From assembly GCA_949288785.1 (NCBI GenBank), contig CASELQ010000001.1, forward strand, positions 1-64,000: a stretch of DNA of 64,000 bases. The letters are read 5' to 3'. This document shows positions 5,367-48,892 of this stretch, in pieces (the stretch's first letter is position 1; each line of letters starts with the position of its first letter). The position numbers were made by a program, and so were the translations under genes. Below the pieces are notes generated by a model. That model made no database searches. It was not told the origin of the DNA and worked only from the letters and a program-made list of their open reading frames with translations. This DNA comes from an uncultured Eubacteriales bacterium (GTDB taxonomy: Bacteria; Bacillota; Clostridia; Christensenellales; Borkfalkiaceae).

Positions 5367-6731
5367 TCAGTTCATTTTACTGTACAATTCGCCGAGAATT
5401 TCAATGCCGTTATCTATAATGAGTTCGGCAACACCGGCTTTGAATCTGGAACTCCGTGCCTCGTAACCGCCCTCGTCATAGGAGTCCTGCATGGGAAAAT
5501 ACCCGTCCGAAGAATTTGTAAGGCAACAAGGCAAAACCATTTTCCAGTCTTTTGCCTCTTTGAGTTTCATACCTATGGGCGTAAACGGCTCGCCCGGAAT
5601 ACCGAAGAATACCGCACCGCCTATAGAAACAGCAGAGAACGTAAGAGAGAAAAATTCCGGCCCGTGCTCAAGCTTTATCATTCTGGCAGCCTCTGCAACC
5701 ACGGTGGTAAGCATCATGCCGGTATAGGGAATCTCGTCATCCTTGCCGGCGTTATGCAGTTCGTTTATCTTATACGCCTGCGGCATATCCTTTATGTCTG
5801 GCATATTCGAAGGTATTTTAACCTGTTTTTGCATATATTTTATGCTATCCACCGGCACGTATTCGACCTTATCGAAAACTTGCAGAACGGAAGCCGCCAT
5901 AACGTTACCCAGATGGCGCGCATGTCCGTAACCGCGGGAAACGTCGTCAAAATCCATAAACATATCGTTAAGATCCCCGCCCGCAGGATGAACGTTCACG
6001 TGGTTAACATCGCCCTGTGCGCCGTTAAAGAAAATACACTTTACGTTGTCAAGCGCCTTCTCCACCTTCCTGCGCGTAAAACCGGGCCAGTCCGCCGAAA
6101 TAAGGTTGCCGCCCACGGTATCCGGATGGTTGCCGAAGTTTGCTATCACTATGCTTTCTGCGTTTTCCCTGTCTATACGTATGACGTTTACCCTTTCGTC
6201 CACCGTGCCTATGGGCTTAACTATGTCAGGGTTATTGACGCCGGGATTGGTCTTTATAGACCCGTCCTTCATAAGGAAACGGCGAAGGAATGCCACTTTC
6301 TCCGCTTTACCCACGCCTATACCCATGGCGGCGGGTTTCATATCCTTTATTGCCGTTACTGCCGCGTCGGTAAATCTGTGGAGCACAAAATGATAATATT
6401 CCTTTTCAATATCAAGCTCCGCCTCTTTCGGCGTTACAAGCGAGGGGCCGGTATGCGTATGGGTGGCGTGGATAAACACTGCGCTCTCATCCACACCGGC
6501 AGCCTTGGCAATTTCTTTTCTGTAAACGTCCAGTACGTTGCTGCCTACTCCGCAATTGTCTATTGTAAAGAGCAAAGCGGTATTATTATTCTTTTTTACT
6601 GCCACGGCGTTTATTTCCAGCGCATCCAACACCCCTTCGGCATACCTGGGCTTATAATAGCCCGTTATGGGTATACCGAACATGGGCGTGATGTCCACAC
6701 GCGCAAAACCGGCGTAAAAATCGTATTTCAT
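5367..6731 (-). CDS. Neutral/alkaline ceramidase-like hydrolase
   Basis: 454 residues matching the catalytic N-terminal domain of neutral non-lysosomal ceramidases, without the usual C-terminal immunoglobulin-like domain and without a signal peptide, so probably cytoplasmic. Zinc-site features are visible: HATHTHTGP near residue 90, FGNHPDTVG near 205 and GDVNH near 245. ATG at 6731 follows GAGGTGGACTT. It is the last gene of an operon with nagA-like and nagB-like genes. The substrate is therefore more likely an N-acylated amino sugar or related amide than ceramide. That is inference. Confidence 0.8.
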   Translation of the reverse strand: MKYDFYAGFARVDITPMFGIPITGYYKPRYAEGVLDALEINAVAVKKNNNTALLFTIDNCGVGSNVLDVYRKEIAKAAGVDESAVFIHATHTHTGPSLVTPKEAELDIEKEYYHFVLHRFTDAAVTAIKDMKPAAMGIGVGKAEKVAFLRRFLMKDGSIKTNPGVNNPDIVKPIGTVDERVNVIRIDRENAESIVIANFGNHPDTVGGNLISADWPGFTRRKVEKALDNVKCIFFNGAQGDVNHVNVHPAGGDLNDMFMDFDDVSRGYGHARHLGNVMAASVLQVFDKVEYVPVDSIKYMQKQVKIPSNMPDIKDMPQAYKINELHNAGKDDEIPYTGMMLTTVVAEAARMIKLEHGPEFFSLTFSAVSIGGAVFFGIPGEPFTPIGMKLKEAKDWKMVLPCCLTNSSDGYFPMQDSYDEGGYEARSSRFKAGVAELIIDNGIEILGELYSKMN

Positions 6732-6756
6732 AAGTCCACCTCAGCGATTACGTATA

Positions 6757-7713
6757 TTAATATCCGACCTTTTCCCAGCACTCGAACGGAGCGGCTATTT
6801 CTTCGCTTACGTAGACCTGAGTATCCATAAGCTGCAGCATGGAACTGGGAATAAGCGGAGAAACGGGTCCATGGAGCACAAGCCTTGAAGTCATCCTCTG
6901 CCAAGACGAGAAGGTATTATTGGTAAGCAGCGCGTGCACCTCTATCCTTTCCCTTGCATTCTTAACGTCTACCGGGCCGATGGTTGCGGCGCAGGGAGGA
7001 ACGTCCGCCACATAGCCGGACTGACCGAAAACGCCGTGCAGAGAATTCTGCGCAACGGTAAGCGGGTGAAGTTTTACGATTCGCGCTTTCATGGAAAGAT
7101 ATTCGTCCATATCATCGGTCATAAATTCCTTTACGGGATCTATAAACGCCATATGCCCCGTCCAACCGGGAGAGGAAGAACAAATGTCCGCGCCGCCCTC
7201 GCCACAATCGGTTATCATATCGGAATAACTTGCGATATTCTTATTGTTGGGATAGTGCACGTTGGATAAAGGCATACGCAATTTTTCGTCTATCTGATAA
7301 ACGAGATATTTGAGCATGGAATGAGCAAAACCAGCCTTATAGGTTTCGGGCGCTATATTGCCGTTTTCGTCCGCCCATTCGTCCATGGCGAAGATGTGCA
7401 CGTTTTTGCAGTCCACCTTAAAATAGTTGATGAGCTGCGCAAGCGGAATATAGGTTTCAGGCTCGGGATTGCCGAGGATAAGGGTGATTTTTTTGCCCTT
7501 TTCGGAAGCGTCCTTTATGCGGGCAAACAGCGTGGCGATAAGCACGGGATGCGGATTCATCATAACCTTTATCTTGAAATTGGGGTTAGGATGTTTTTCC
7601 AGATCCTTGCCGCTTATCTTGCGCAGTTTTTCGCATAATTCCCTGTCTTTAAACGGAACGAAATCCGCAGGGGTAAACTTGAAATCTGTTGCCGGTTCGA
7701 AAATGTTGCTCAT
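6757..7713 (-). CDS. Glucosamine-6-phosphate deaminase-like protein, divergent
   Basis: 318 residues of the NagB/6-phosphogluconolactonase superfamily. The MDEW segment (D111) matches the MDEY motif of NagB, whose Asp takes the C2 proton, and TGHMAF (185-190) matches the DGHIAF motif. The Asp of DGH is Thr185 here, and the ring-opening Glu is Asp192. The N-terminal phosphate loop is also poorly kept. It overlaps the nagA-like stop by four bases (ATGA), so translation is coupled. It may act on a different phosphorylated amino sugar, or be a non-deaminating isomerase or lactonase. Confidence 0.8.
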   Translation of the reverse strand: MSNIFEPATDFKFTPADFVPFKDRELCEKLRKISGKDLEKHPNPNFKIKVMMNPHPVLIATLFARIKDASEKGKKITLILGNPEPETYIPLAQLINYFKVDCKNVHIFAMDEWADENGNIAPETYKAGFAHSMLKYLVYQIDEKLRMPLSNVHYPNNKNIASYSDMITDCGEGGADICSSSPGWTGHMAFIDPVKEFMTDDMDEYLSMKARIVKLHPLTVAQNSLHGVFGQSGYVADVPPCAATIGPVDVKNARERIEVHALLTNNTFSSWQRMTSRLVLHGPVSPLIPSSMLQLMDTQVYVSEEIAAPFECWEKVGY

Positions 7714-8849
7714 AACTTCTCTCCTCTGAATATAACTTTTTTTACATTGAATTTATCGTCGACCATAACAAGGTCGGCGTAATTTCCTTCTCTTATGCAG
7801 CCCTGTTTTTTAAGGCCCGTAACCGCCGCGGGGTTAAATGAAGCGAACCTGAACGCGTCGCACACCGAACAACCCGTATGCACCATAAAGTTAGAACAGG
7901 CTATATCGAGCGTAAGCCCGGAACCAGCTATCTCTCCCGCATGGTCAAAATGAATGTCCGTAGCCTCTTCATACCCTTTGGGAACGGGTCCGTCGCACAC
8001 GAATTGGTCTGATATAAGTATTATCCTGTCATCACCCTTGATTCGGCGGACAAGCCGCTGCATATACGGATCTACGTGCAGCCCCATCTTATCGGATATG
8101 AGCTCGGCGTAAATTTCGCGGTTATAATTCACCGCCTCGTCCACACATACACCCCTGCACTCGGAATACTTGAATATCGTGCCGGTGGCGTTAGTGTGGT
8201 GGGTGCCTATTTTAAGCCCGTACGGAATATATTTTTCCACCTGCTGCGGCGTAGCCTCGCTGTGGGCTACCGCAAAAACGGGATTGTCCGTAACGGCGCA
8301 CACGTCCTTTACAAAGGCATCTATGCCCTCTCTTTCGGGAGCGATACACCAAACTTTTGTATAATCTTTTACGGTATCTATAAGTTCGGCGTAATCTTCT
8401 TTTTTTATGTCGCCCTTCCAGGTATTTTTTTCCCTGTCGCACCCGAATTTGGGGTTAAGATAGGGTCCTTCCATATATAACCCGGAAAAATTGGGGAATA
8501 TGCCGGCCTTATATGCGCTTATAATATCCTTTGCCGCTTTTATGTATTGCGCCTTGTTGAGGTTATAATAGAGCGCCGGCAGAACGCCCGTAACCCCGTG
8601 GGACAGCATATAGCGCGAGGTTTTTTCGGGCTCTTCGAATATCCACAGATTGTCTGCCGCGTGGGTATGTATATCGATAAGCCCAGGGCCGACATAAAGC
8701 CCTTCAGCATCTATAACCTCCGCATTTTCCGGTACCTTTATGTCCTTTTCTTTGCCGAACGCGCTTATAAGACCGTTCTCCATGAGAACGGTCGCACCGG
8801 GAATAAGATGGTCTTTCATGACCAGCGTTGCGTTTACAACTGCCTTCAC
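7710..8849 (-). CDS. nagA: N-acetylglucosamine-6-phosphate deacetylase family protein
   Basis: 379-residue amidohydrolase that would remove acetyl from GlcNAc-6-phosphate. Visible metal-site elements are DIHTHAAD (His61, His63), MEGPYLNP, AHSEAT, THHTNATG and the catalytic Asp in ILISDQF. The start is GTG at 8849 after GGGGAGAG; no ATG is near. It is first in the operon with the nagB-like and ceramidase-like genes. The canonical NagA sequence THLFNAM is THHTNATG here, so substrate preference may differ. Confidence 0.85.
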   Translation of the reverse strand: MKAVVNATLVMKDHLIPGATVLMENGLISAFGKEKDIKVPENAEVIDAEGLYVGPGLIDIHTHAADNLWIFEEPEKTSRYMLSHGVTGVLPALYYNLNKAQYIKAAKDIISAYKAGIFPNFSGLYMEGPYLNPKFGCDREKNTWKGDIKKEDYAELIDTVKDYTKVWCIAPEREGIDAFVKDVCAVTDNPVFAVAHSEATPQQVEKYIPYGLKIGTHHTNATGTIFKYSECRGVCVDEAVNYNREIYAELISDKMGLHVDPYMQRLVRRIKGDDRIILISDQFVCDGPVPKGYEEATDIHFDHAGEIAGSGLTLDIACSNFMVHTGCSVCDAFRFASFNPAAVTGLKKQGCIREGNYADLVMVDDKFNVKKVIFRGEKL

Positions 8850-9052: not shown

Positions 9053-9526
9053 TTATATCTGCCTCCTTAAAAACGTAAATTCGGTACTGCCGTCTTCTTC
9101 ATTATAATATTTAACTTCAAAATCCAGCCCGCACATGGCGGCAAGCTCACCGTAAACGGTATATGTAGTTTCTTTATACCACCCGGATGGCGTATGCCCC
9201 GATTTGCGCATAAACGTTACCGCCGGGCACTTGTCTATTTTTATGCCGAGCGCGTTATCGGAAAGGGAAGTATGCAGAACTTCGGGCATCTCCTCTTTTT
9301 CAAAAATATCCGTAAAATAATCTTGCAAAGCCTTAAACCCTTCTTTTATCACGCTTGCCGCAAGGGGCTGATAAAAACTTCGCGCATATCCGCGCAGATA
9401 TTCCTTTACCCCTTCGTCCCCGTAATGCTTGCCCACATAGGTTATCCCGATATCGCCGGATACGAAAAAATCCCTGTGCAGGTACTTGTTATCGCCCGAC
9501 TTACGCTCGATAAAAAGTTTCTCCAT
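9053..9526 (-). CDS. Small protein resembling the ATC-hydrolase family
   Basis: 157 residues. The pattern CPAVTFMRKSG followed by ETTYTV, and an N-terminal KHYGDEGVKEYLRGYARSFY segment, recall proteins annotated as L-2-amino-thiazoline-4-carboxylate hydrolase-like, often found near corrinoid methyltransferase genes. That match is from memory. ATG at 9526 follows AAGGAGAGATC. It lies 42 bases after the amidohydrolase gene and is probably in the same operon. Its reaction here is unknown. Confidence 0.65.
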   Translation of the reverse strand: MEKLFIERKSGDNKYLHRDFFVSGDIGITYVGKHYGDEGVKEYLRGYARSFYQPLAASVIKEGFKALQDYFTDIFEKEEMPEVLHTSLSDNALGIKIDKCPAVTFMRKSGHTPSGWYKETTYTVYGELAAMCGLDFEVKYYNEEDGSTEFTFLRRQI

Positions 9527-9568
9527 GATCTCTCCTTTGTTTATACTGCCGGTTTGACAGTACGTTTT

Positions 9569-10330
9569 TCAGAACTTAAAGCCGAATATATCGGTCTTTT
9601 TGCCGAACAGCCTTAAAGCGTTTTTATAAAGAATATTCTCTTTATCGCTTTCGCTTATATCCGCATAATCTATACGCCCGCGCAGAAAGGCGCACGAATA
9701 CGTGTCCGTACCGAACAGGATTTGCTCCGAACCCGCTTTTAAAACCGCGTATTCTATTATATTGTTTTTAAAGCTTGCCATACCGGAAGTATCGGTAAAA
9801 ACATTTTTATGTCTGCTTCCTTTTACGGCGTCAATCCACTCGGCTCCGCCGAGATGGGCTATTATAAGTTTCATTTGCGGATAATCGTCCGCCTTGCGGG
9901 CAATCTTATCTATGTGCTGGGGGTGCATCAGTATGGCGGCGGACACGTCGTTTGCAAACGAGAAAATCTTATCCGCGTGATCCATCACGTCGTACCCGTG
10001 ATAATCGGGATGTATCTTTATCCCCAGAACCTTTTTGCTCTTCAACAATTTTTCGGTCTGTAAAAAGGAACTCTCTTTCCGCGGGTCCAGAACTGCCCAC
10101 TGATAAAAAAATTCGTCCCTTTCCGCAATTTCCGAAAAATATGAATTTCCGCTCTCCACGCCATCAGCCGAAATCACCGCGGAAAACGGACTTACCGCGC
10201 ACGCCTTTACGTTAAGGCGCTCTCTTTCGCGCTTTAAAAATCCAGTGTCCGCGCGGTAACATTCGTCCGTTACGGTATCGTGTAAATCACCCGTATTACA
10301 ATGACAATGTATGTCTACAGCGCTTATCAT
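9569..10330 (-). CDS. Metal-dependent amidohydrolase (amidohydrolase-2 type)
   Basis: 253 residues of the TIM-barrel amidohydrolase-2 family. The metal-binding pattern is DIHCHCN near the start, then LGIKIHPDYHG, LMHPQH, LIIAHLGG and LFGTDTYSC. The open frame extends to 10441, but the ATG at 10330 follows GAGGTGCGGC and places the HxH motif at residues 6-8 as usual. It is divergent from the AraC regulator at 10555. The substrate is not predictable. Confidence 0.85.
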   Translation of the reverse strand: MISAVDIHCHCNTGDLHDTVTDECYRADTGFLKRERERLNVKACAVSPFSAVISADGVESGNSYFSEIAERDEFFYQWAVLDPRKESSFLQTEKLLKSKKVLGIKIHPDYHGYDVMDHADKIFSFANDVSAAILMHPQHIDKIARKADDYPQMKLIIAHLGGAEWIDAVKGSRHKNVFTDTSGMASFKNNIIEYAVLKAGSEQILFGTDTYSCAFLRGRIDYADISESDKENILYKNALRLFGKKTDIFGFKF

Positions 10331-10514
10331 GCCGCACCTCGCCAAACTCCGAACGTTCCCGCCGACCGATAACTTTCCGGCCGCAATTATTACGACGTAC
10401 GAAATCTTTAAAATGATAACACTATTTTTGTAAGTTTTCAATACTCTGGTAAGTCAATTTTATTTTGAATATGTCCGATTATTACAGTTTTTTGTTTATT
10501 TATGCAACATATAA

Positions 10515-10543
10515 TTGCCATTGAACCTGATATATGATAAAAT
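10515..10543 (+). promoter_or_regulatory. Promoter of the first AraC gene
   Basis: TTGCCA at 10515-10520, a 17-base spacer and TAAAAT at 10538-10543. The predicted start near 10550 leaves only about five untranslated bases before the ATG at 10555. Confidence 0.6.
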
Positions 10544-10554
10544 AACATAGAGAT

Positions 10555-11397
10555 ATGCAGACACTTGAAATTACCATAGGCAATACAAAACTTGCCGCGC
10601 TCAGTGATTTTTCCGAAACTCCCGGCCCAGGCACGGATATTTACGATGCAACAAAAGCGCAAAAGCTGCATTACCATGCCGCGTTCGAAGTTTTTTTTGC
10701 GTACGGAAGTACTTTAAAACTTTTTACCATGGACGGTTCTTCCGAATACGAAAACAGCGTTGTAATAATTCCGCCCCGCCTTTACCACTATGCCGAAAAG
10801 AAAGGAGATATTTACGGATTTACATTTAAAATCGCTTCTAAAAACAATCGGAATGATCCTTTATTCGATTTTCTGTATGATGATGACAAAAAGATACGAA
10901 AATACGAAATGAGCGAAAATATTAAAAACACGGTCTGCGCATTGAGAAAAGCCCTTTTTTTCGATATGTATTCCGACCAGTATAAAACAACCCCGCTCAT
11001 GACTCTTCTTTTTCTGAATATTGCGGACGTTGCCGTAAGAAAAAAATCGCCCGCGCCTAAATTAAGCCTCGGCAACGAACGCAGTTATACGGAAATAATA
11101 GACAACATTATCTCAAAAGAATATATGAATAAAATAACGCTCGGATACGTTGCGGACAGGCTGTTCCTAAGCGAAAGGCAGACGGCAAGAATAATAAAAA
11201 AAGCGTATAACCAATCCTTTTCCGAGCTGCTTTTAAGCCGCAGGCTTACGGTAGCCTCCGTAATGCTTACCACTACGAGCGAAAAAGTTTCCGGCATTGC
11301 CGAAAGCACGGGCTTTCGAACCGAGAACTACTTTTTTTCCTGTTTCAGAAAGCGTTTCGGCATGACCCCCATATGTTACAGAAAACTTTACGGATAA
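10555..11397 (+). CDS. AraC family transcriptional regulator
   Basis: 280 residues with an N-terminal cupin-type sensing domain (about 30-110) and a C-terminal pair of helix-turn-helix motifs (about 180-280), ending in the family signature GIAESTGFRTENYFFSCFRK and FGMTPICYRK. The ATG at 10555 has no clear Shine-Dalgarno site and sits about five bases from the predicted transcription start. It lies between the divergent amidohydrolase gene and the convergent UroD-family gene, so it most likely senses the substrate of this corrinoid island. Confidence 0.9.
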   Translation: MQTLEITIGNTKLAALSDFSETPGPGTDIYDATKAQKLHYHAAFEVFFAYGSTLKLFTMDGSSEYENSVVIIPPRLYHYAEKKGDIYGFTFKIASKNNRNDPLFDFLYDDDKKIRKYEMSENIKNTVCALRKALFFDMYSDQYKTTPLMTLLFLNIADVAVRKKSPAPKLSLGNERSYTEIIDNIISKEYMNKITLGYVADRLFLSERQTARIIKKAYNQSFSELLLSRRLTVASVMLTTTSEKVSGIAESTGFRTENYFFSCFRKRFGMTPICYRKLYG

Positions 11398-11459
11398 ACT
11401 ACCGCATTTCTTGTATAACGGATTTTACCGTTTTGCTTACCTGCGCCGTTCAAAGTGAT

Positions 11460-12485
11460 TTATACGAGTTTAAATTCGGGATAAACCGTCTTTATCATTG
11501 CGACGTAATTTTTAAGCGGGACGAACTTTGCTATGGAATTGCCCGAACCTAAAGCATACCCCCCTTTTTCCTCTGTTTTTTCCAGCATTTTTTTGCAACG
11601 CGCACTTATTTCCTCATCGCTTTTCCTGCTTAAAAAATTCATATCTATCCCGCCGAGCACGGCAATTTTTCCGCCGTACATATCATAGGCTTTTTCAACG
11701 GGCATTATGGAATCTTCATATGAGTGTTTTCCGTCTATGCCTATCACATCATAAAGTTCGCTGAAAATCCCCGAAAAATTTCCGCAGGAATGCATACCAA
11801 TCACTTTGCCCGCTTCATGCGTTTTTTCGGCAAGCCTTTTATAATAAGGATATATAAGTTTTCTCAGGTCGTCATGAGACAGCATGGTGCTGCTGTTAAA
11901 TCCCCAGTCGTCGTTGCAAAAGGCAATTCCCACGGCGGGGTCTTTAAGCGTTTCGGTTATAAATCTCTCTATCCTGGTGCCCACCTCTCCGAAAATCCGC
12001 TCGGCAAGTCCTCTGTCGTCGGCAAGCATAAAACACAGAATTTCATATCCGCAAAGGGCTATAACGTTTTCAAGTATACCGTTAGGACAATACGAAAGAA
12101 TTTTCATCCCGTCCGGCAGATACTTTTTTACTATATCCAGGGTGCCGTAATTTACCTTATCCATATCCGGCCAGGGATATTCGTCAAAACTATTCCTGTC
12201 CGTGATAACGGCGCCCTGATTCAAGGAATAGGTTTCTTCCGTTTCCACACCGCCGTTTGTAAACCATAAATCGCCCAAAATAAAAGGCACATAATCGTAT
12301 CCGCCGTTATAATAAGCCTTTATCTTGCGCTTTATTTTTTCCTCGGGCAAGTCGTCCTTTAACTTATAGCCCGATAAAAATTCTTCAGCCTCGTCAGATA
12401 TCAAAAACTCAAACAAAGTGGGCCTTGCGGGTCTTTTTTTCAGAAATACCTGTTTTATATTGTTTTCAAAATCCGGTTCACGCAT
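11460..12485 (-). CDS. UroD-family methyltransferase, corrinoid system
   Basis: 341 residues of the uroporphyrinogen decarboxylase superfamily, in which MtaA/MtbA-type members move methyl groups between substrates or CoM and corrinoid proteins. The zinc motif His-x-Cys is present (H232, C234 in MHSCGN). The third ligand seen in MtaA types is missing: the C-terminal segment reads GSGNS (N316). The substrate acids of true UroD are not evident, so a haem role is unlikely. ATG at 12485 follows GAGGAG. It is divergent from its own AraC gene at 12591. Confidence 0.85.
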   Translation of the reverse strand: MREPDFENNIKQVFLKKRPARPTLFEFLISDEAEEFLSGYKLKDDLPEEKIKRKIKAYYNGGYDYVPFILGDLWFTNGGVETEETYSLNQGAVITDRNSFDEYPWPDMDKVNYGTLDIVKKYLPDGMKILSYCPNGILENVIALCGYEILCFMLADDRGLAERIFGEVGTRIERFITETLKDPAVGIAFCNDDWGFNSSTMLSHDDLRKLIYPYYKRLAEKTHEAGKVIGMHSCGNFSGIFSELYDVIGIDGKHSYEDSIMPVEKAYDMYGGKIAVLGGIDMNFLSRKSDEEISARCKKMLEKTEEKGGYALGSGNSIAKFVPLKNYVAMIKTVYPEFKLV

Positions 12486-12575
12486 ATTTTTTCTCCTCTG
12501 TTAAAATTATATTATTCATTGATGTTTTTTTCTCACATAAAATTTGCTTAAACTAACACTATATTGCTTTTCATG

Positions 12576-12584
12576 TGATATAAT
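12576..12584 (+). promoter_or_regulatory. Extended -10 promoter of the second AraC gene
   Basis: TGATATAAT (TGN-TATAAT) at 12576-12584 with no good -35. The expected start falls at or next to the ATG at 12591, so the message may be leaderless. Confidence 0.5.
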
Positions 12585-12590
12585 AATGAT

Positions 12591-13448
12591 ATGGAACACA
12601 TTCAGAGAGAGAAAGTTTGGTTTAATCGTTCCGACCGAGATTGCCGAGCGGCAATCTCTAAAGGCGAACACGATAAGCCCCTTGACGTGGACACGCACTG
12701 GCACGAACTTTTCGAGGCGGTAAAATGCCACGGCTGCGGAAAAGTAATAATAGAAGGACGGGAATACGGTTACGGCAACGGCGATATAATTATTATCCCG
12801 TGTAAATTCCTGCACGGCTTTAAGGAAACCGAAAAGGGTGAATATAAAGTAATTTTTATATGTGCGGAAAACATCCTGTCGGACGGAAACGCCGACTTTG
12901 CCGAAAAACTGAAAGCGCGGATGTACGGGACCTTCGCAATGCGCTTCGTTTTCACGACCTCGGACGTTAAATATCCCGCGCTGGACCGTGCCTTTGAAAA
13001 CCTCTATCATTCTGCCGAAGAGAATAAAAACCCGCTTAAAATAAGGGCTGATATACTGAATTTTCTTTCCGAAACAGATTACGATGAAAACGCCCCCGTT
13101 CAGCTCAACGAACAGCGCTATGTCCTCGGTGAGGTTGCGGAGTTTATTGAAAAAAATTATGCCGGTGAAATAAGCCTTAACGACCTTTGCAAAATTGCCG
13201 CAATGAGCAAATTCTATTTTATAAAAACATTCAGCCGCTATTACGGCACAACTCCGATGCGATTTGTGCTGAATATGCGGCTGAAAAAGGCCTTCGGCAA
13301 ACTGAGAGAAGGCTGCCCCGTTACCGAGGCTGCGTTTGATTGCGGGTTTAATAATCTCAGCTACTTTACAAGGCAGTTTACAAAAAAATACGGGATATTG
13401 CCGAAAGACGTAAAAAAACGCAGTTTTTCGGAACAGGTTTTACCCTGA
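12591..13448 (+). CDS. AraC family transcriptional regulator
   Basis: 285 residues. The N-terminal cupin domain carries THWHELFEAVKCHGCG and the GDIIIIPCKFLHGF motif. The C-terminal double helix-turn-helix spans about 180-285 (SLNDLCKIAAMSKFYFIKTF, then AAFDCGFNNLSYFTRQFTKK). No Shine-Dalgarno site precedes the ATG, and TATAAT ends six bases before it. It is divergent from the UroD-family gene at 11460-12485, the likely target. It is the second AraC protein in the island, unlike the first in the N-terminal half. Confidence 0.9.
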   Translation: MEHIQREKVWFNRSDRDCRAAISKGEHDKPLDVDTHWHELFEAVKCHGCGKVIIEGREYGYGNGDIIIIPCKFLHGFKETEKGEYKVIFICAENILSDGNADFAEKLKARMYGTFAMRFVFTTSDVKYPALDRAFENLYHSAEENKNPLKIRADILNFLSETDYDENAPVQLNEQRYVLGEVAEFIEKNYAGEISLNDLCKIAAMSKFYFIKTFSRYYGTTPMRFVLNMRLKKAFGKLREGCPVTEAAFDCGFNNLSYFTRQFTKKYGILPKDVKKRSFSEQVLP

Positions 13449-13513
13449 AAATCAATATTAAGATTTTCGTCCTATAATAAATAACCGCGTTCTCATGCCA
13501 TGCGCTTATAATT

Positions 13514-14047
13514 TTATCGGTTAAAAAACACTGCCGAAAAATAGGTAACCGTATTCTGCCCGTTTACGTAATTTATGTTAAGTTTTCGGGAAAGCTCAAC
13601 CACGTCCATTCCGCAAGCCTCCATAGAAGTTTTAGCCTTGTCCGGAAACCTGCACGGCTCGGGGAATGCGCACTTTTCGCAGATATTGCATCCGCCGGCG
13701 CCCAAAATCATGGCGCCGGTTTCTTTAATTAGCGGAAGAATTTTATTTTCCACCGCGTCGTGTTCCTTTCTGCCGTTAAACATACCCTCTATATCAAAAG
13801 AATCTACTATATTATGCACCGTGGTGAATATAAAGGCATATTTGTATGCAAGACAACGGCCTTTCAGGGTTTCAAGATCGCCGACGTTGGGCGGGCATGT
13901 CCAGGTCTTATTATAATTCCCGCAAAGATTTTGCCTGCACATCTTTACCACTTCCTCACTGAATATCAAAGATGAGGTTTCTGTTTCGGCATACTGAAAA
14001 ATCTCTTTTCCTATAATACTCAATATTTTTTCCGTAAACTCAGTCAT
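13514..14047 (-). CDS. DUF2284 metal-binding protein
   Basis: 177 residues. Cysteines match the DUF2284 pattern: C-x5-C and TWTCPPNVG near the N-terminus, then GGCNICEKCAFPEPCRFPDK. This suggests an iron-sulfur or zinc site. Such proteins recur beside corrinoid methyltransferase genes, with unknown role. The open frame continues to 14107, but the ATG at 14047 follows GGAGATTGTG and overlaps the upstream stop (ATGACTGA), so it is translationally coupled to the RACo-like gene. Confidence 0.85.
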   Translation of the reverse strand: MTEFTEKILSIIGKEIFQYAETETSSLIFSEEVVKMCRQNLCGNYNKTWTCPPNVGDLETLKGRCLAYKYAFIFTTVHNIVDSFDIEGMFNGRKEHDAVENKILPLIKETGAMILGAGGCNICEKCAFPEPCRFPDKAKTSMEACGMDVVELSRKLNINYVNGQNTVTYFSAVFFNR

Positions 14048-15506
14048 CACAATCTCCGAAAAACATATTATCCATAAAGAACTCGGTAAACAGCGGATTT
14101 GAGGCAAGGTCCGTTACCGAACACTCCCCGCAAAGTTTTTCCGCCTCGATAAGCCGGGCGCAGTCGGCGGCGCACATAACGGCGCCAAGCCCGGCGGTGT
14201 TACCCGCCGCTTTTATTTTATCCTTAAACTCCTTGGGTATAAGCCCTACCTTTATTGCGCTTTCCTTATTCAGGTAAAACCCAAAGCCTCCGGCAATAAA
14301 CACGTTGTCTATCTCGTCAGGACGGGTATCAGATACTTTCAGAAGGGTCATTATGCCAGACATAATCGCACTCTTTGCGAGTTGAAATTGCCTGATATCT
14401 TGCTCATTTATAAAAACATTTTCCACAATACTGAAACTATGCCCTGAAGTAAAGGCGCCGCTTTCGTCTATCACCCCGAGCGAGAGCATTGCGGCAACTG
14501 CCTGCACAAGCCCCGAGCCGCATATCCCAACGGGGCTTTCACCCCCTATCGTGGAATAACTTATTTTTCCGTCCACACATTCAACTCCGTCAATCGCACC
14601 GGCAACGCCTCCCGTTCCGCAGGTTATTCCCGCGCCCTCGAATGCCGGGCCTGCCGCCGTGGAAGTACAAAAAAGCCTGCCGCGTGAGCAAAGCATGATT
14701 TCGCCGTTGGTCCCCATGTCTACAAGCAGGTTATTGCCGTTTTTTATATCCACCGCAATCGCTCCGGCGGCGATATCGCTCCCCACAAACGCCGATACCG
14801 ACGGCATGAGAATAACTTCCTGCACATTTAACCCGAATTTTTTTCCGTCAAACCTTTGAATATCCTTAAACACCGGGTCGAAAGGAGCATGCCCCATACT
14901 TTCCGGGTTTATCCCGGCAAACAGGTGCAGCATTGTGGTATTTCCGGTTACCATAAGCAGGCGTACTCTGCCGCCGGCATACTGCCCCGCCATTTCCGAA
15001 AAAACCGCCCTTACCGTGCCTATAACCGCATTATGCAGTTCATCCGTGTGCCCCTCGGAGGCATATTTAATTCTGCTTATCACATCCGCCCCGAACGCCC
15101 GTTGTGGGTTAAGAACACTCTTTTTTGCCGCAACATACCCTTTTTCAAGGTCTATGATATAAAAAGCAAGCGTCGTAGTGCCAATATCCAGCGCCGCGGC
15201 AAAACCCGTTCCGCCCGCCTTTATTTTGCTTTCGCCCGTAAATTCGGTAAGCCCTGCACCTTTTTCTTCGGATAACACTATTTCCTCGTTTTGCAGGATC
15301 TTATGTCTGCAAGACAGCGTTTTTTCGGCTTTACCTTTGCTTATTACCGTTACCGCGCACTTTCCGCATTTACCGTTTCCGCCGCACTCCGCGCTTATTT
15401 TATATCCGTTTCGCTGTAAAACATTGAGAAGAACCTCTCCGCAGCTTACGCTCACCGTCCTTTTTGATTTTCCCGAAACTACTGTAAGCAATATATCTTC
15501 CGACAT
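14040..15506 (-). CDS. RACo-like reductive activator of corrinoid proteins
   Basis: 488 residues. An N-terminal [2Fe-2S] ferredoxin domain carries CGGNGKCGKC and a later Cys (TLSCRH). A C-terminal ASKHA-type ATPase domain has LDIGTTTLAFY, MVTGNTTMLHLF and DMGTNGEIML. Members use ATP to drive reduction of inactive Co(II) corrinoid back to Co(I). Here the natural client is the corrinoid protein at 17845. The ATG lies two bases after the stop of the preceding UroD-family gene, so the two are one operon with DUF2284. Confidence 0.92.
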   Translation of the reverse strand: MSEDILLTVVSGKSKRTVSVSCGEVLLNVLQRNGYKISAECGGNGKCGKCAVTVISKGKAEKTLSCRHKILQNEEIVLSEEKGAGLTEFTGESKIKAGGTGFAAALDIGTTTLAFYIIDLEKGYVAAKKSVLNPQRAFGADVISRIKYASEGHTDELHNAVIGTVRAVFSEMAGQYAGGRVRLLMVTGNTTMLHLFAGINPESMGHAPFDPVFKDIQRFDGKKFGLNVQEVILMPSVSAFVGSDIAAGAIAVDIKNGNNLLVDMGTNGEIMLCSRGRLFCTSTAAGPAFEGAGITCGTGGVAGAIDGVECVDGKISYSTIGGESPVGICGSGLVQAVAAMLSLGVIDESGAFTSGHSFSIVENVFINEQDIRQFQLAKSAIMSGIMTLLKVSDTRPDEIDNVFIAGGFGFYLNKESAIKVGLIPKEFKDKIKAAGNTAGLGAVMCAADCARLIEAEKLCGECSVTDLASNPLFTEFFMDNMFFGDCDD

Positions 15507-15508
15507 TT

Positions 15509-16519
15509 TTACATTTTTCCTGCGTAAAATTCTTCTATCGCATTAAAATATGCGTCTATATTCTCCCATTTTGAAGCGGGCGGAATGTCGCACCCTGAGG
15601 AAATTACAAAGTTCTTGTACACGGAACAATCTGCAAGCAAAGTCTTTACCGCTTTATTCATAGATTCAGGGGTGCCGTTTCTGAATTCTCCCGCGGGGTC
15701 TATATTGCCCATTACTACAATATCTTCCGGCACATGCTTTAACATCTCGCGCATGTCTATGGCGTTTCCGAAGTGAAGAACTTTGGCGCCCGTTCTCAAT
15801 ATGGAATCTATAATGCTTATTGCGGAATTTCCGAAATTGTGATATAGTACAAGAAAATCTTCACTCTGACAGGTGCTTATTATCCTGCTTATATACGGCT
15901 CGGAAAATTCCGCAGCAAGGTCCGGGGACAAAAGCCCGGTAAGCGGCTCGGCAATAACAACGCCGTTTGCACCCGCCTTTTTATACGCCGCAATATAATC
16001 TATCAGAAAGTCCGTGCATTTTTCGAGCACAGTCTTCATCATTTCGGGTTCTTCGTAGCAATAAATCATTGCCTCGGTAACGTCCACAAGCCTGCCCGCA
16101 AGCGAGAAACTGCCGATAACTCCCGCAAATACCGGCCGGTCCGTTATAAGTTTCACAGCTCTTTCTATGGCGTTGATATATAACCCCGTTCTCTTTTCTC
16201 CCACCTTGGGAACGGCAAGTTCCTGCGCTTGCTGCAAAGAGGTTACAAGCCTGCCGGTTACGGTGGGCACCTCGTTATCGGAAAACACCGTCTCTGCGCC
16301 GAAACACTCGGCTTCTACAGACAGGTCCATAAGGCTTACCGAAGCCAATGACGGCACTCTTTCGCTTATAAGCTGCATGGCGCGCGCCTGGTTTTCCGCA
16401 CTGGAAATGAGGTCTTTTACGGTTATCCCCATGAGCTGAACGCCCGGGAAACTGAGAATGGGCATACTCTTTTTTATCGGCGAATTTTTAAGCTCTTCAA
16501 GCCATTTATACATATTCAT
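15509..16519 (-). CDS. UroD-family methyltransferase, corrinoid system
   Basis: 336 residues of the MtaA/MtbA branch of the UroD superfamily. The C-terminal SSGCDIPP (C310) matches the third zinc ligand of that branch. The upstream His-x-Cys motif reads HNFG (H227, F229), so its Cys is lost. ATG at 16519 follows AGGAGTATTGCT. It is the first gene of the operon with RACo-like and DUF2284 genes. A TATAAT at 16535-16540 has no matching -35, as expected for an activator-dependent promoter. The methyl donor is unknown. Confidence 0.87.
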   Translation of the reverse strand: MNMYKWLEELKNSPIKKSMPILSFPGVQLMGITVKDLISSAENQARAMQLISERVPSLASVSLMDLSVEAECFGAETVFSDNEVPTVTGRLVTSLQQAQELAVPKVGEKRTGLYINAIERAVKLITDRPVFAGVIGSFSLAGRLVDVTEAMIYCYEEPEMMKTVLEKCTDFLIDYIAAYKKAGANGVVIAEPLTGLLSPDLAAEFSEPYISRIISTCQSEDFLVLYHNFGNSAISIIDSILRTGAKVLHFGNAIDMREMLKHVPEDIVVMGNIDPAGEFRNGTPESMNKAVKTLLADCSVYKNFVISSGCDIPPASKWENIDAYFNAIEEFYAGKM

Positions 16520-16619
16520 AGCAATACTCCTTTGACTTTGATTATACTCCGAAACCGGGAAAAAAGATATGTATTGAATTGTTTTTATTTAGTATTTTCT
16601 TGTTCTTAAAGGCAATACA

Positions 16620-17141
16620 TCAAAGTTTTACGGTGCCGAAAACCTTTTCAAGCGGGATAAACAATGCCAAAACCGTTATAACGGCGCACAGCACCTGCGC
16701 CCCCATCACGGGAAGGCAGGCATAAAAATAAAGCAAAGCGGCATCGTGCGAATAGCCGTAATAAAGGGGCGTAATGACCGAATCTATGAGAGAAAAACAT
16801 ACTGTGAGCACCGCTGCGGCAACGGTTAAAACGGCAAGCCTGAATGTTTTGCCCTTATCCTTGATTTTTCCGCTTATCAACCCTATAACTATTGCAAACA
16901 GATTGTAATATACAAGGTAAAGTATTATGACATTTATAAAGAAACCGAAAAAAAAGCAACGCAAAAGCGAATATGCCGTTGCGGTAAGCATACCCATTTT
17001 TGCACCGAAACAATAACAGAATGTAAGAAGGATAACGGTAACCACCTCCACGCCCTTAACGCCGCTCAATACAAATTGCCCGGCTATAAGCAGCGCCACG
17101 GTAAGGGCGATTACCGCTATCTCTTTTGAAGTTTTGATCAT
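16620..17141 (-). CDS. ECF transporter S component, candidate cobalamin binder
   Basis: 173 residues with about five to six membrane helices and the layout of ECF substrate-binding subunits (an IALTVALLIAGQF first helix, GAKMGMLTATAYSLLRCFFF in the middle). Its ATG overlaps the stop of the DUF4430 lipoprotein gene (TAATG). Both lie behind a cobalamin riboswitch, which points to cobalamin or a precursor as substrate. No EcfA or EcfT gene is nearby, so it would use a shared energising module. Confidence 0.82.
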   Translation of the reverse strand: MIKTSKEIAVIALTVALLIAGQFVLSGVKGVEVVTVILLTFCYCFGAKMGMLTATAYSLLRCFFFGFFINVIILYLVYYNLFAIVIGLISGKIKDKGKTFRLAVLTVAAAVLTVCFSLIDSVITPLYYGYSHDAALLYFYACLPVMGAQVLCAVITVLALFIPLEKVFGTVKL

Positions 17142-17554
17142 TAAAAACTCTGATATGCCAAGATATAAGTGCAGCCGCTTTTTATTTTAAGTTCGCCCGC
17201 GCCTAGCGTTGCGCTGAGATATACTTTTTCCTTATACGTAATGGTTCCCCAGCTTTCGTTACCGTTCTCGGCATCGTCAGTATAAATCATCCAGTAAGAA
17301 TTCATGCTGTTTTCTTTACCGTTTACGGAGGTTATCATGCCGTCAGAAATGGTAAAGGTGAGTTCACCGGCATCGGAAAGCGCGTTCATATAGTCCAGCA
17401 AAGTAGTGGTATAGGTTATTTCCATAAACTCATTGTTTGCATGTATTATGACTATATCATCTTCGGACACTACGGTGTCGCGGTTACACCCCGAAAACGC
17501 AGAAACGGCAAGCGCCACACACAATATAAGGCATATTTTTTTTAAGAGCTTCAT
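17141..17554 (-). CDS. DUF4430 lipoprotein, candidate extracellular corrinoid binder
   Basis: 137 residues. A signal peptide ends in the lipobox SAFSGC, so the mature protein is anchored outside the membrane. The rest fits DUF4430, a domain related to the C-terminal part of transcobalamin/intrinsic factor (the YWMIYTDD region and a GCTYILAYQSF end). ATG at 17554 follows AAAGGAGAAAACTT. Riboswitch control and tight coupling to an ECF S component suggest capture of corrinoids for uptake. Confidence 0.85.
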   Translation of the reverse strand: MKLLKKICLILCVALAVSAFSGCNRDTVVSEDDIVIIHANNEFMEITYTTTLLDYMNALSDAGELTFTISDGMITSVNGKENSMNSYWMIYTDDAENGNESWGTITYKEKVYLSATLGAGELKIKSGCTYILAYQSF

Positions 17555-17592
17555 TGAAGTTTTCTCCTTTGAATTTTGTTAAATTATTTATA

Positions 17593-17627
17593 TTAAAAAA
17601 AGGGTTTTTTCGGACACGAAAAACCCC
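17593..17627 (-). terminator. Riboswitch-linked terminator
   Basis: Minus-strand stem GGGGTTTTTCG/CGAAAAAACCC with a TGTC loop, then seven T, 39 bases before the DUF4430 start. Its 3' half can pair instead with TTTTTCTCGGAC (17661-17672), an apparent antiterminator. Confidence 0.85.
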
Positions 17628-17660
17628 TCTCAATATAAGGCATTATCGTTTTTCTCCGCT

Positions 17661-17793
17661 GTCCGAGAAAAATACGGCTGAATAAGATTATCGGGCAGGC
17701 TATCGGACTGTTACCGTAATGACTGTTGCGGCGGATTTTCACCGCGCTTCCCCTGCTCTCCGCTATATAAAACCATATAAGCGACTCCGATAA
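17661..17793 (-). promoter_or_regulatory. Cobalamin riboswitch
   Basis: The minus-strand aptamer spans 17688-17793, closed by a 7-bp P1 stem TTATCGG/CCGATAA. Conserved core elements are GGGAAGC, CGGTGAAAATCCG, the ACAGTC segments and GATAGCCTGCC. An expression platform follows: an antiterminator strand at 17661-17672, then the terminator at 17593-17627. Ligand binding should switch off the DUF4430 and ECF S genes. The aptamer is compact, which may mean a short class II-like form. Confidence 0.82.
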
Positions 17794-17844
17794 AATATTA
17801 AGTTTTACGCATAGACATTTTAAATGCCGATAACGCGTTTTAAT

Positions 17845-18477
17845 TTAATTAAAGAGCGCCCTTGCCGCTTCCGCCGCACTGGCAGCATCCGCAGTATAAA
17901 TGTCGGCTCCAACCTCATCGGCAAAAGCCTGGGTTACCGGCGCTCCGCCCACCATGACCTTTACCTTATCTCTAATCCCCGCCGCTTTAAGCGCGTCTAT
18001 AATATCTTTCTGGTACATCATGGTTGTGGTAAGCAACGCCGAAAGGCAAACTATATCCGCATTATTCTCTTTTACGGCGTTCACCACCTTTTCCGCATCG
18101 CAATCCGTGCCGAGGTCTATCACCTTTATCCCCGCGCCCTCTATCATGAGTTTGACAAGATTTTTACCTATATCGTGCAGATCTCCCTTAACCGTGCATA
18201 TAACCGCCGTTCCCACGGGCTCCACGCCTTCCTTGGCAAGAACAGGCGCAAGAATTTTGATAGCGGCATTCATGGCGCGCGCAGCAATAAGCACTTCCGG
18301 CACGAATATCTCGTTGTTCTTGAATTTTATACCCACTACGTTCATCCCGGGGACAAGCCCCTTTGTAAGAATATCGTTTGCGGAAACGCCGTCTGCCAGC
18401 GTCTTTTCCACAAGGGCGGAAAGATCTTTCGCCCTGCCCTTTTGCAGCAATTCGGAAATTTCGTTAAAATCAGCCAT
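17845..18477 (-). CDS. Corrinoid protein of a methyltransferase system
   Basis: 210 residues of the MtaC/MtbC/MtmC family. An N-terminal helical cap domain (about 1-88) is followed by a B12-binding Rossmann domain with the cobalt-ligating signature GDLHDIGKN and the later VGGAPVTQAFADEVGAD. It carries the methyl group on cobalt between substrate-side and acceptor-side methyltransferases. ATG at 18477 follows AGGGAGATTTGT. It is the only corrinoid protein in the island and so probably serves both UroD-family enzymes. Confidence 0.95.
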   Translation of the reverse strand: MADFNEISELLQKGRAKDLSALVEKTLADGVSANDILTKGLVPGMNVVGIKFKNNEIFVPEVLIAARAMNAAIKILAPVLAKEGVEPVGTAVICTVKGDLHDIGKNLVKLMIEGAGIKVIDLGTDCDAEKVVNAVKENNADIVCLSALLTTTMMYQKDIIDALKAAGIRDKVKVMVGGAPVTQAFADEVGADIYTADAASAAEAARALFN

Positions 18478-44045: not shown

Positions 44046-44564
44046 ATGAAAACAACTTATAAAATTGCCGCGGCGGGTTTATATTCCGCCCTTGCGCTTA
44101 TCACGTTTACACTGGAAAATCTTTTGCCGCCCCTCTTTATTCCGGGGGCGCGGCTGGGGCTTTCCAATATATTTATACTTGTATCCGCACTCACTTTGGG
44201 GAGCGTGTGGGGTTTTGCTGTTCTTGCAGTAAAAACCGTTGTCGGCAGCCTTATAGCCGGCAATTTTTCCGCCGTTTTGTATTCTCTCCCCGCGGGAATA
44301 ATCGCCCTGTTGCTGCAGCTTTTGGCAATACGCGCGATTAAATGCAGCGTTATTGCGGCGAGTGTTTTGGGAGCTACGGTAAACATAACCGTTCAGAACA
44401 CGGTTTTCTGCCTTGTTGCCGGAGCCGCCGAATATTTTATCTATCTGCCGTATCTTGCGCTTATAAGTATACTTTCGGGTGCGGTTACGGGGTTTGTTGT
44501 GGTTTTACTGCTGAAAAAACTGCCCGCACGGTTCACGGGCTTGCATGTTAATATTAAGGAGTAA
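44046..44564 (+). CDS. Gx transporter family membrane protein
   Basis: 172 residues with about five to six helices and the GARLGLSNI signature. This family is often annotated as heptaprenyl diphosphate synthase component I and has an ECF-S-like fold. It sits in the usual place between NusG_II and rnfC. The ATG at 44046 lies 40 bases after the preceding stop. The substrate is not known. Confidence 0.85.
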   Translation: MKTTYKIAAAGLYSALALITFTLENLLPPLFIPGARLGLSNIFILVSALTLGSVWGFAVLAVKTVVGSLIAGNFSAVLYSLPAGIIALLLQLLAIRAIKCSVIAASVLGATVNITVQNTVFCLVAGAAEYFIYLPYLALISILSGAVTGFVVVLLLKKLPARFTGLHVNIKE

Positions 44565-44568
44565 TATT

Positions 44569-45867
44569 TTGAGCATCATTAAAGCAAAGAGGTTTCCGTT
44601 CGGTTCGCCCGTGCACGGAACTAAACTTTCAAGATTTGCCGAGATAAATAACGTTCCGGCGCCCGAAAAGGTTTATATCAGCCTTTCTCAGCACATAGGC
44701 GCACCTGCTCTGCCCGCGGTTTCTCCGGGCGGCAAAGTAAAAAAGGGGCAGCTTATCGGCCGCGCCGCGGGCACGGTTTCCGCAAACGTATATTCGTCCG
44801 TATGCGGGACCGTTTCGGAGGTAACCGAACTGGTAAACGGACTGGGGCAGAAACAGACCCACGTAATTATAGAAAACGACGGAGGGACGGACGAGATACG
44901 TTTTGAAAAAATCTCTGACCTCTCCCCTCAATCGGTTATAGAACGCATTGCGCTGGCGGGCATTGTGGGCCTTGGCGGCGCGGGATTTCCCACCGCGGTA
45001 AAACTTTCACCAAAAACTCAGCTCGAAGTGCTCGTAATAAACGGCGCCGAGTGCGAGCCGTATCTTACCTGCGACGACAGGCTAATGCTTGAAAAGACCG
45101 AAGAAATATATCAGGGAATAAAAATTATGGCCGGGGCGATCGGGGTAACCCGGATAGTTATGGGAATAGAGCGCAACAAACCGCTTGCCATAGAGGCCTT
45201 TTCAAAATATGAGGATATCGGCGTTGCGCCTCTCAAAAAGCAATACCCGATGGGCAGCGAAAAACACCTTATATACAGCACAACAGGGAAAAAAGTACCT
45301 CCCGGCAAAATGCCGTTCGACGTGGGCGCATGCGTGCAGAACGTAAAGACGGCGCTCGCCGTATATGAAGCGGTGGCGCTGAATAAACCGCTTACCGAAA
45401 CGGTGCTTACCGTAAGCGGCAGAGGCGTTAAGACGCCTAAAAATCTGCGGGTTCCGCTCGGTACGCCCTATTCGTACCTCATAGATTACTGCGGAGGAAC
45501 CGTAGGCAATACAGCAAAACTTATATGCGGCGGCCCGATGATGGGCAAAGCGCTTATCTCAGGAGAACACTATACAAGGAAAACAGATTCAGGGATATTG
45601 GTATTAACTGACGGCGAAACGGACAGCAAAGCCCCTTCTAACTGCATTAACTGTGCGCGCTGCGCCGATAAATGCCCCATGCGGCTGATGCCCATGAAGA
45701 TAGAGCGCTGTGCCCTAGAAAACGATTTTGCCGGCGCCGAAAAGCTGGGCGCGATGAACTGCATAGAATGCGGCCTGTGCGCCTATAACTGCCCTGCAAA
45801 GCGCGCCTTGGTACAAAGTATCGTAACCGCTAAACAGAAGATACGGGAGATGAAGAAAAATGGATAA
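44569..45867 (+). CDS. rnfC: Rnf electron transport complex subunit C
   Basis: 432 residues. The NADH/FMN-binding region (GLGGAGFPTAVKL, INGAECEPYLTCDDRLM) is followed by two [4Fe-4S] motifs (CINCARCADKCP and CIECGLCAYNCP). It is the peripheral subunit facing NAD in the Rnf complex, which couples ferredoxin oxidation to NAD reduction and ion export. The start is TTG at 44569 after AAGGAGTAATATT. The longer frame from 44545 overlaps the Gx gene and is less likely. Confidence 0.96.
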   Translation: MSIIKAKRFPFGSPVHGTKLSRFAEINNVPAPEKVYISLSQHIGAPALPAVSPGGKVKKGQLIGRAAGTVSANVYSSVCGTVSEVTELVNGLGQKQTHVIIENDGGTDEIRFEKISDLSPQSVIERIALAGIVGLGGAGFPTAVKLSPKTQLEVLVINGAECEPYLTCDDRLMLEKTEEIYQGIKIMAGAIGVTRIVMGIERNKPLAIEAFSKYEDIGVAPLKKQYPMGSEKHLIYSTTGKKVPPGKMPFDVGACVQNVKTALAVYEAVALNKPLTETVLTVSGRGVKTPKNLRVPLGTPYSYLIDYCGGTVGNTAKLICGGPMMGKALISGEHYTRKTDSGILVLTDGETDSKAPSNCINCARCADKCPMRLMPMKIERCALENDFAGAEKLGAMNCIECGLCAYNCPAKRALVQSIVTAKQKIREMKKNG

Positions 45868-46849
45868 TACCGTTCTTACATATTCGCCTGCCCCTCACTT
45901 AAAGGCAAACATAACCACACGCAAAATAATGGCGGACGTCTGTATTGCCCTTCTCCCCGCGTGCGTGATGGGCGTAGTATATTTCGGACTGAAAGCGCTG
46001 CTCATTCTTGCGCTCTCTCTGTTTTCCGCCGTGGCAAGCGAATTTATATTTTTACTGGCGGCAAAAAAGCCCTTCCGCGAGATCGTAAGGGAGTTTGACC
46101 TTACTTCATGCGTAACAGGACTCTTGGTAGGGCTTACGATAGGCACAAATTATCCCTGGTATGCCCCGATATTCGGCAGCGTGTTTGCCGTTGTCGTGGT
46201 AAAAATGCTCTTCGGCGGTACCGGCAAAAACATAGTAAACCCCGCCATTGTGGGCAGGATATTTATCTTTATGTCCTTTCAGTCGGTGGTGGGAGAATGG
46301 CTCGCTCCGTCTATAGGCCCGCTTTCCGGGCAATCGCCTGCCACGGGCGCAACTATACTTACGGGAATACTTAACGGCACGCCTTCTCCCCTTTCAAACT
46401 GGGACTTACTGCTCGGAACGGGGCTTGCCGGCTGTATCGGCGAAACCTGCAAACCGGCGCTTATTGCCGGCGGAATATATCTTGCCGCAAGAAAGGTGAT
46501 AAATATCTCCTATCCCGTAATATATATCGCGGTTACGGGGTTGTTTTCGGTGTGCCTTTCCGGCTTTGATTTTTCCGTGTTCCTGCCCTCCGTGCTCTCC
46601 GGCGGGCTTATTCTCGGCGCAATATTTATGGCTACCGATTACACCACCACGCCCGACACCGCGATCGGAAAAATTCTGTATTTTACAATGCTGGGGCTGC
46701 TTACCGCGGGGCTGAGGTACGCCACTAAAATGGAGACCGTATCTTTTGCAATTCTTTTAATGAATCTTTTAGTGCCGCTTATCGACAGATTTATCATAAA
46801 TAAACCGTTCGGATATAAGAGAAAAAAGAAGGAGGCGGAAAATGGCTAA
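45860..46849 (+). CDS. rnfD: Rnf complex subunit D
   Basis: 329 residues with about ten membrane helices. The covalent FMN site is the Thr of the S/T-GAT motif (SPATGATILTG). It overlaps rnfC by eight bases. It is part of the membrane ion-pumping core with RnfA, RnfE and RnfG. Confidence 0.95.
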   Translation: MDNTVLTYSPAPHLKANITTRKIMADVCIALLPACVMGVVYFGLKALLILALSLFSAVASEFIFLLAAKKPFREIVREFDLTSCVTGLLVGLTIGTNYPWYAPIFGSVFAVVVVKMLFGGTGKNIVNPAIVGRIFIFMSFQSVVGEWLAPSIGPLSGQSPATGATILTGILNGTPSPLSNWDLLLGTGLAGCIGETCKPALIAGGIYLAARKVINISYPVIYIAVTGLFSVCLSGFDFSVFLPSVLSGGLILGAIFMATDYTTTPDTAIGKILYFTMLGLLTAGLRYATKMETVSFAILLMNLLVPLIDRFIINKPFGYKRKKKEAENG

Positions 46850-48273: not shown

Positions 48274-48274
48274 T

Positions 48275-48883: not shown

Positions 48884-48892
48884 GAGATATTT

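Follow-up and report, generated by a model that had tools for sequence, protein, structure and literature searches.

A conserved gene cluster with two divergent UroD-family enzymes in an uncultured Eubacteriales bacterium is a candidate corrinoid methyl-transfer system

Most known bacterial corrinoid demethylation systems hand the methyl group to folate. OdmB and VdmB (PMC10418091) and CdmB (PMC13222342) are substrate-side methyltransferases of the UroD superfamily. Among published systems, the type 1 mlp gene cluster (MGC) comes nearest to the one described here; Kountz and Balskus propose that it demethylates small sulfur or selenium methyl compounds (PMC10418091). Here we describe a cluster in the first 64,000 nucleotides (the window) of contig CASELQ010000001.1 from an uncultured Eubacteriales bacterium of the Borkfalkiaceae, whose draft genome (G000; 1.73 Mb) is 90% complete. 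On the minus strand, the genes for a corrinoid protein (CP), an adenosylcobalamin (AdoCbl)-II riboswitch, a DUF4430 protein and an energy-coupling factor (ECF) S-component-like protein, UroD1, RACo and DUF2284 follow each other; a plus-strand AraC gene comes next and then UroD2, again on the minus strand. Apart from the AraC gene, we regard these elements as the core. It is somewhat probable that the core is a corrinoid methyl-transfer system, with UroD2 on the donor side, UroD1 on the thiol acceptor side and RACo and DUF2284 in reactivation. We infer the direction of transfer, the division of labour, the substrate and the acceptor; gene identities, phylogeny, motifs, co-occurrence and the lack of any folate-type methyltransferase II (MTII) in the genome besides MetH are observed.

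The core recurs in many families and orders, where its genes are adjacent and the same pattern of association repeats. In the nearest congeneric cluster (locus L023 of genome G024), the order CP, riboswitch, DUF4430, ECF, UroD1, RACo, DUF2284, UroD2 is kept; CP (G024:C32:7884-8507) is 89% identical to the window copy, and UroD1 and UroD2 are each 69% identical. Within the window genus, CP, RACo and DUF2284 occur in the identical four genomes (G000, G009, G012 and G024), and a DUF2284 match in G038 is weak and below cut-off. Matches to CP (E<=1e-40) were found in 29 of 151 relatives, 27 being counted as orthologs. By Fisher p-values, which ignore shared ancestry, CP goes with RACo in 24 of 27 cases (p 1.7e-21) and with UroD1 in 16 of 17 (p 1.3e-13), UroD2 homologs are present in 9 of the 151 relatives and always with CP (9/9, p 5e-8), and DUF2284 is found with CP in 17 of 20 (p 5e-15, 121 relatives). 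Motif and neighbour searches used 80 loci, each with a UroD1 relative. In the 43 of them flanked on each side by 5 kb or more, the neighbourhood of UroD1 holds CP (23), AraC- or PocR-like regulators (19), RACo (17), another UroD (15) and DUF2284 (13). A Pfam census of neighbours revealed no single extra family that recurs. A sequence-only reading of the window had proposed a corrinoid methyl-transfer system without a known substrate; its genes were recovered at about the positions it gave, and its proposal agrees with the finding that CP, UroD1, RACo and DUF2284 keep occurring together in relatives.

UroD1 has at least 516 relatives in a GTDB-wide scan. In a careful maximum-likelihood tree, whose branching order agrees with the published one (PMC10418091), 19 UroD1 sequences form one clade (support 100/100) outside the group with MtaA and Mlp1-3. 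The tree thus places UroD1 in a separate clade beside, yet outside, the methanogen coenzyme M (CoM) methyltransferases and the published mlp proteins. UroD1 is 28% identical to MtaA and scores under the NCBIfam cut-offs of TIGR01463 (MtaA/CmuA; 111 bits, curated cut-off 235.4) and PRK06252 (126 bits, cut-off 244). The zinc ligands H, C, C of MtaA (4AY7) align with H, C, C of the UroD1 relatives, and the thiol-type zinc motif H-x-C...C, read as YHNCG...[ST]GC, is present at all 80 loci, which were retrieved with patterns that did not contain it.

UroD2 carries the motif H-S-C...G-S-G-N, and an alignment of nine family members shows invariant HSCG, KHS-x-ED and GxGN segments. Its AlphaFold model (predicted local distance difference test, pLDDT, 88.8) matches MtaA best in the PDB (4ay7, E 1e-12) and then uroporphyrinogen decarboxylases; the third zinc position is Asn in UroD2 and Cys in MtaA. 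UroD2-type partners lie opposite UroD1 in the tree and are very diverse, with many deep branches. Other partner UroDs vary at the zinc positions (H-S-D, D-S-D, D-C-D and others), as would be expected if the partner decided the substrate. At L106 and L084, an MttB-family gene takes the partner position. The two UroDs of the window lie on very different branches and probably differ in role, a point that the sequence-only reading overlooked. Its suggestion that one UroD enzyme acts directly on the methylated compound finds a candidate in UroD2, although such a role is not new in itself, being that of OdmB, VdmB and CdmB.

Several side observations concern UroD2 and its counterparts. Three more UroD2-like genes with AraC-type genes beside them lie on contigs 10 and 21 of the same genome (L041:3329-6579, L042:1954-3045); no CP accompanies them, and that of the island could serve them too. 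In congeneric G012, UroD2 (L168:2041-3069) is 64% identical and has a stop codon inside, and a 44% relative of the window AraC gene at 12591-13448 adjoins it. At L106:1031-8166, CP, DUF2284, UroD1 and RACo precede the MttB-family gene, with choline-kinase and nucleotidyltransferase genes alongside. At L084:7735-11005, the MttB-family gene lies between CP and UroD1 and is split by an N gap, not by a frameshift. A 495-aa neighbour at L119 was rejected as MttB, since by sequence it looks like a polytopic membrane transporter.

UroD1 is put on the acceptor side because of its thiol-type zinc site, its thiol-methylating relatives, its variable partner, the MttB-family gene at two loci and the lack of a pterin MTII in the 80 loci. 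No pterin-type MTII was found in these loci or in the fetched relatives, the only pterin-type match being a dihydropteroate synthase at L089. UroD2 is a candidate methyltransferase I (MTI) and UroD1 a candidate MTII of a three-component system. A diverged MGC in which UroD1 and UroD2 both demethylate small sulfur or selenium methyl compounds for methyl-sulfur or methyl-selenium salvage would share the logic of two UroDs, a CP, a Ram/RACo activase and no folate methyltransferase (PMC10418091). Such a role is in line with the similarity of UroD1 to MtaA and with the H-C-C site of its relatives, which favours sulfur or selenium. However, none of UroD1, CP and RACo belongs to the matching MGC group, UroD2 is without the third Cys, and neither Mlp2 nor Mlp3 is present, so that we consider this explanation unlikely. 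Its selenium part is further disfavoured because SelD was not found above cut-off in the 90% complete genome, and a sulfur role is possible.

CP carries the B12-binding and cap domains that mark the corrinoid protein of a three-component system, and its sequence contains the motif GDLHDIG. It is closest in NCBIfam to MtgC/MtbC and stays under the cut-off of TIGR02370 (207 against 215 bits). RACo has the complete domain set of a reductive activase (PF14574/PF17651/PF00111) and is the only one found in a search of its own genome. In DUF2284, six Cys are invariant and a seventh nearly so among 31 sequences. Its structure model (pLDDT 95.6) best matches nitroreductase-like folds, including the B12 enzymes QueG, MMACHC, BluB and RdhA; these matches are weak (Foldseek E > 0.001) and, with Z below 8, no more than a hint. 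DUF2284 may be, as a guess, an Fe-S protein that feeds, or helps with, the reduction of the corrinoid.

MetH is the only other gene of the genome with a B12-binding cap, and the only pterin-type methyltransferase domain of the genome lies inside it on contig 46. The statement of the sequence-only reading that no known substrate-side methyltransferase is present held for MTTB-family genes, none of which occurs in the draft genome; MtaB (PF12176) was not searched for separately. MetH (G000 contig 46, L163:2013-4535) contains homocysteine, pterin and B12 domains, an AdoMet activation domain was not found in it, and no candidate to reactivate it was found other than the island's RACo. In other bacteria, MetH regains its activity through DUF4445/RamA-like proteins (PMC5764234); RACo, perhaps with DUF2284, might mainly serve MetH here, the UroD genes being mere neighbours. 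The missing activation domain and the uniqueness of RACo would suit such a role, which is nevertheless very improbable, because RACo follows CP in the relatives and, in many orders, directly adjoins CP, UroD1 or DUF2284.

If the core is a corrinoid methyl-transfer system as proposed, UroD2, the variable member, would bind a specific methylated substrate and transfer its methyl group to the Co(I) form of CP. The constant member, UroD1, would then use its thiol-type zinc site to move the methyl group from methyl-CP to a thiol, perhaps homocysteine, and so do the work that a folate-linked MTII does in acetogens. Whenever CP lapses into the Co(II) state, RACo would re-reduce it, possibly together with the Fe-S protein DUF2284. 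More generally, and with less than even confidence, CP, RACo, DUF2284 and UroD1 may form a widespread chassis in gut anaerobes, in which a UroD zinc enzyme stands in for the folate-type acceptor and UroD2 or MttB donors, perhaps for O-methylated carbohydrates, are exchangeable.

Several points weigh against the proposed system. The evidence for it comes from genes and predicted structures. The window copy of UroD1 reads YHNFG instead of YHNCG, that is H-x-F...C, with Phe229 (codon TTC, window 15833-15835(-)) at the place of an otherwise invariant Cys of the His-Cys-Cys zinc site, which the sequence-only reading overlooked. A single base change from TGC to TTC would account for Phe229, and its source is either mutation or a draft-assembly error. 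Without one zinc ligand, the UroD1 step may be impaired in this genome; because of Phe229 and the internal stop in UroD2 of G012, the corrinoid system may be breaking down in some members of the genus. The MttB-family gene takes the partner position at only 2 of 80 loci, and CP of L084 is a very long branch. Moreover, CP is missing from the neighbourhood in 20 of the 43 UroD1 loci with long flanks, so that UroD1 may work at a distance from it or do something else. That the acceptor is homocysteine is weakly indicated by two loci, through a SAH (S-adenosylhomocysteine) hydrolase at L096 and a homocysteine S-methyltransferase at L081.

At L081 (Flexilinea), CP sits between UroD1 and the homocysteine S-methyltransferase, so that UroD1 could be the donor side. 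UroD1 would then be the substrate-side enzyme and demethylate some small methyl compound that is common, CP would pass the methyl group to MetH or a homocysteine methyltransferase, and UroD2 types would be alternative donors. This arrangement of L081 and the frequent lack of a nearby CP speak for such an assignment. However, the acceptor side is the better fit for an enzyme that stays constant while its UroD2 or MttB partners vary widely, and the closest characterised homologs of UroD1 are methylcobamide:thiol methyltransferases; we therefore hold a donor role for UroD1 to be distinctly unlikely.

As to the substrate of the proposed system, carbohydrate genes lie near several clusters: L-fucose isomerase and GH94 (L023), ROK and SIS (L048, L167), FGGY kinase and aldolase (L169), and GH43 and NagB (L175). 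NagA- and NagB-like genes near the island score below curated cut-offs. These neighbours, taken without background correction, suggest a sugar-like O-methyl compound as a lead only. At L096:3680-7016, a glycyl radical enzyme and the SAH hydrolase lie upstream of a CP-DUF2284-UroD1-RACo-UroD cluster.

The features of the island are listed in Table 1. Only 2 bases separate UroD1 from RACo, and the RACo gene shares 8 bases with that of DUF2284; the three genes thus look co-transcribed.

Table 1. Position, strand and supporting evidence of the features of the island in the window
Feature	Position	Strand	Evidence
CP, methyl carrier, 210 aa, MtbC/MtgC-like	17845..18477	-	PF02310 + PF02607; TIGR02370 207 bits
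AdoCbl-II riboswitch aptamer, between CP and uptake pair	17689..17765	-	Rfam RF01689 49.8 bits
Intrinsic-terminator-like hairpin + T run	17595..17636	-	fold -15.4 kcal/mol, z -3.3
DUF4430 lipoprotein	17141..17554	-	PF14478 28.1 bits
ECF S-component-like membrane protein	16620..17141	-	sequence look and position 3' of riboswitch
UroD1, SCMT-like methyltransferase	15509..16519	-	PF01208 174 bits
RACo-like ATP-dependent reductive activase with 2Fe-2S domain	14040..15506	-	PF14574, PF17651, PF00111; 205+150+29 bits
DUF2284 protein	13514..14047	-	PF10050 153 bits
AraC-type regulator, between DUF2284 and UroD2	12591..13448	+	PF12833 72.6 bits
UroD2, proposed substrate-side methyltransferase	11460..12485	-	PF01208 66.7 bits
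Second AraC-type regulator	10555-11397	+	
Amidohydrolase	9569-10441	-	

The aptamer passes as an AdoCbl-II riboswitch (Rfam gathering threshold 36.5 bits) and is found at the equivalent position in two congeneric genomes (L023, 46.1 bits; L024, 42.5 bits). The stable hairpin with its T run, between the aptamer and the DUF4430 gene, is likely the expression platform; it was not reported by the consensus scan. When adenosylcobalamin is ample, the riboswitch would probably terminate transcription of the DUF4430-ECF pair and possibly also of the downstream UroD1-RACo-DUF2284 genes. A DUF4430 ortholog and the ECF gene occur together in L023, L024, L045 and L171. The ECF-S-like protein had no match in a Pfam search and has an ortholog in L023 (72%). 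It is a probable cobamide uptake protein, and the DUF4430 lipoprotein is its probable cobamide-binding partner.

The sequence-only reading had suggested that the whole island could be one pathway, with the hydrolases as possible steps. The island instead divides into the conserved core and other genes: the amidohydrolase, the ATC-hydrolase-like gene and both AraC genes are absent from L023, and single-sequence searches gave no homolog of either hydrolase across the 80 loci. The hydrolases are therefore probably outside the core and were rejected as its members, though they may have a strain-specific link to it. The earlier gene labels were confirmed, that of the ATC-hydrolase-like gene being weak (18.8 bits, cut-off 28.1). 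Downstream, NagA-like, NagB-like and ceramidase-like genes with scores under curated cut-offs adjoin the hydrolases (window 5367-8849(-)). Apparent genes of an Rnf complex (ferredoxin:NAD+ oxidoreductase), recognised by eye only, lie at window 44545-49708(+) and are a possible low-potential electron source.

If the proposed system is real, bacteria that lack the acetogen pathway would have a common, thiol-directed gut system through which methyl groups removed from dietary or host compounds feed the formation of methionine or methylthiols. DUF2284 would then gain a function, as would large branches of the UroD superfamily that are orphans so far.

No description of UroD1-CP-RACo-DUF2284 clusters was found in the open literature, subscription papers being mostly outside the search. 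Type 1 MGCs likewise combine UroD-superfamily methyltransferases with one CP and a RACo/Ram activase, lack a folate methyltransferase and are hosted by anaerobes, mostly Firmicutes (PMC10418091). Here, too, no tetrahydrofolate methylase lies within 20 kb, the only one being MetH. In contrast to MGCs, the genes are not unidirectional, as the plus-strand AraC gene lies between DUF2284 and UroD2, where L023 has no such divergent gene; the partner UroD is very different and variable, DUF2284 and a cobamide uptake pair are present, and PocR-like regulators are common. UroD1, CP and RACo form separate clades, CP and Ram being placed outside the MGC branches in quick trees that included ten MGC-like loci. 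We selected the MGC reference loci, those of the UroD tree too, for their content (2-3 MtaA-like UroDs, CP and Ram) and gave them Mlp labels of our own. Membership in type 1 MGCs was rejected on this placement and on the lack of Mlp2 and Mlp3. The methylcobamide:coenzyme M methyltransferases MtaA and MtbA share the fold and, in UroD1 relatives, the zinc motif, and provide the closest solved structure; they differ from UroD1 by their low identity, its sub-cut-off scores and the H-x-F...C of the window copy. UroD2 resembles OdmB, VdmB and CdmB in its UroD fold and in accompanying a corrinoid protein and an activase, whereas those systems have a folate-linked MTII; this comparison is drawn from their descriptions, not from sequence. 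MttB-family systems (MtgB and relatives) differ in their substrate-side gene, for which this genome has no MttB counterpart, and are approached by the MtgC-like CP and by the two loci that pair an MttB-family gene with UroD1.

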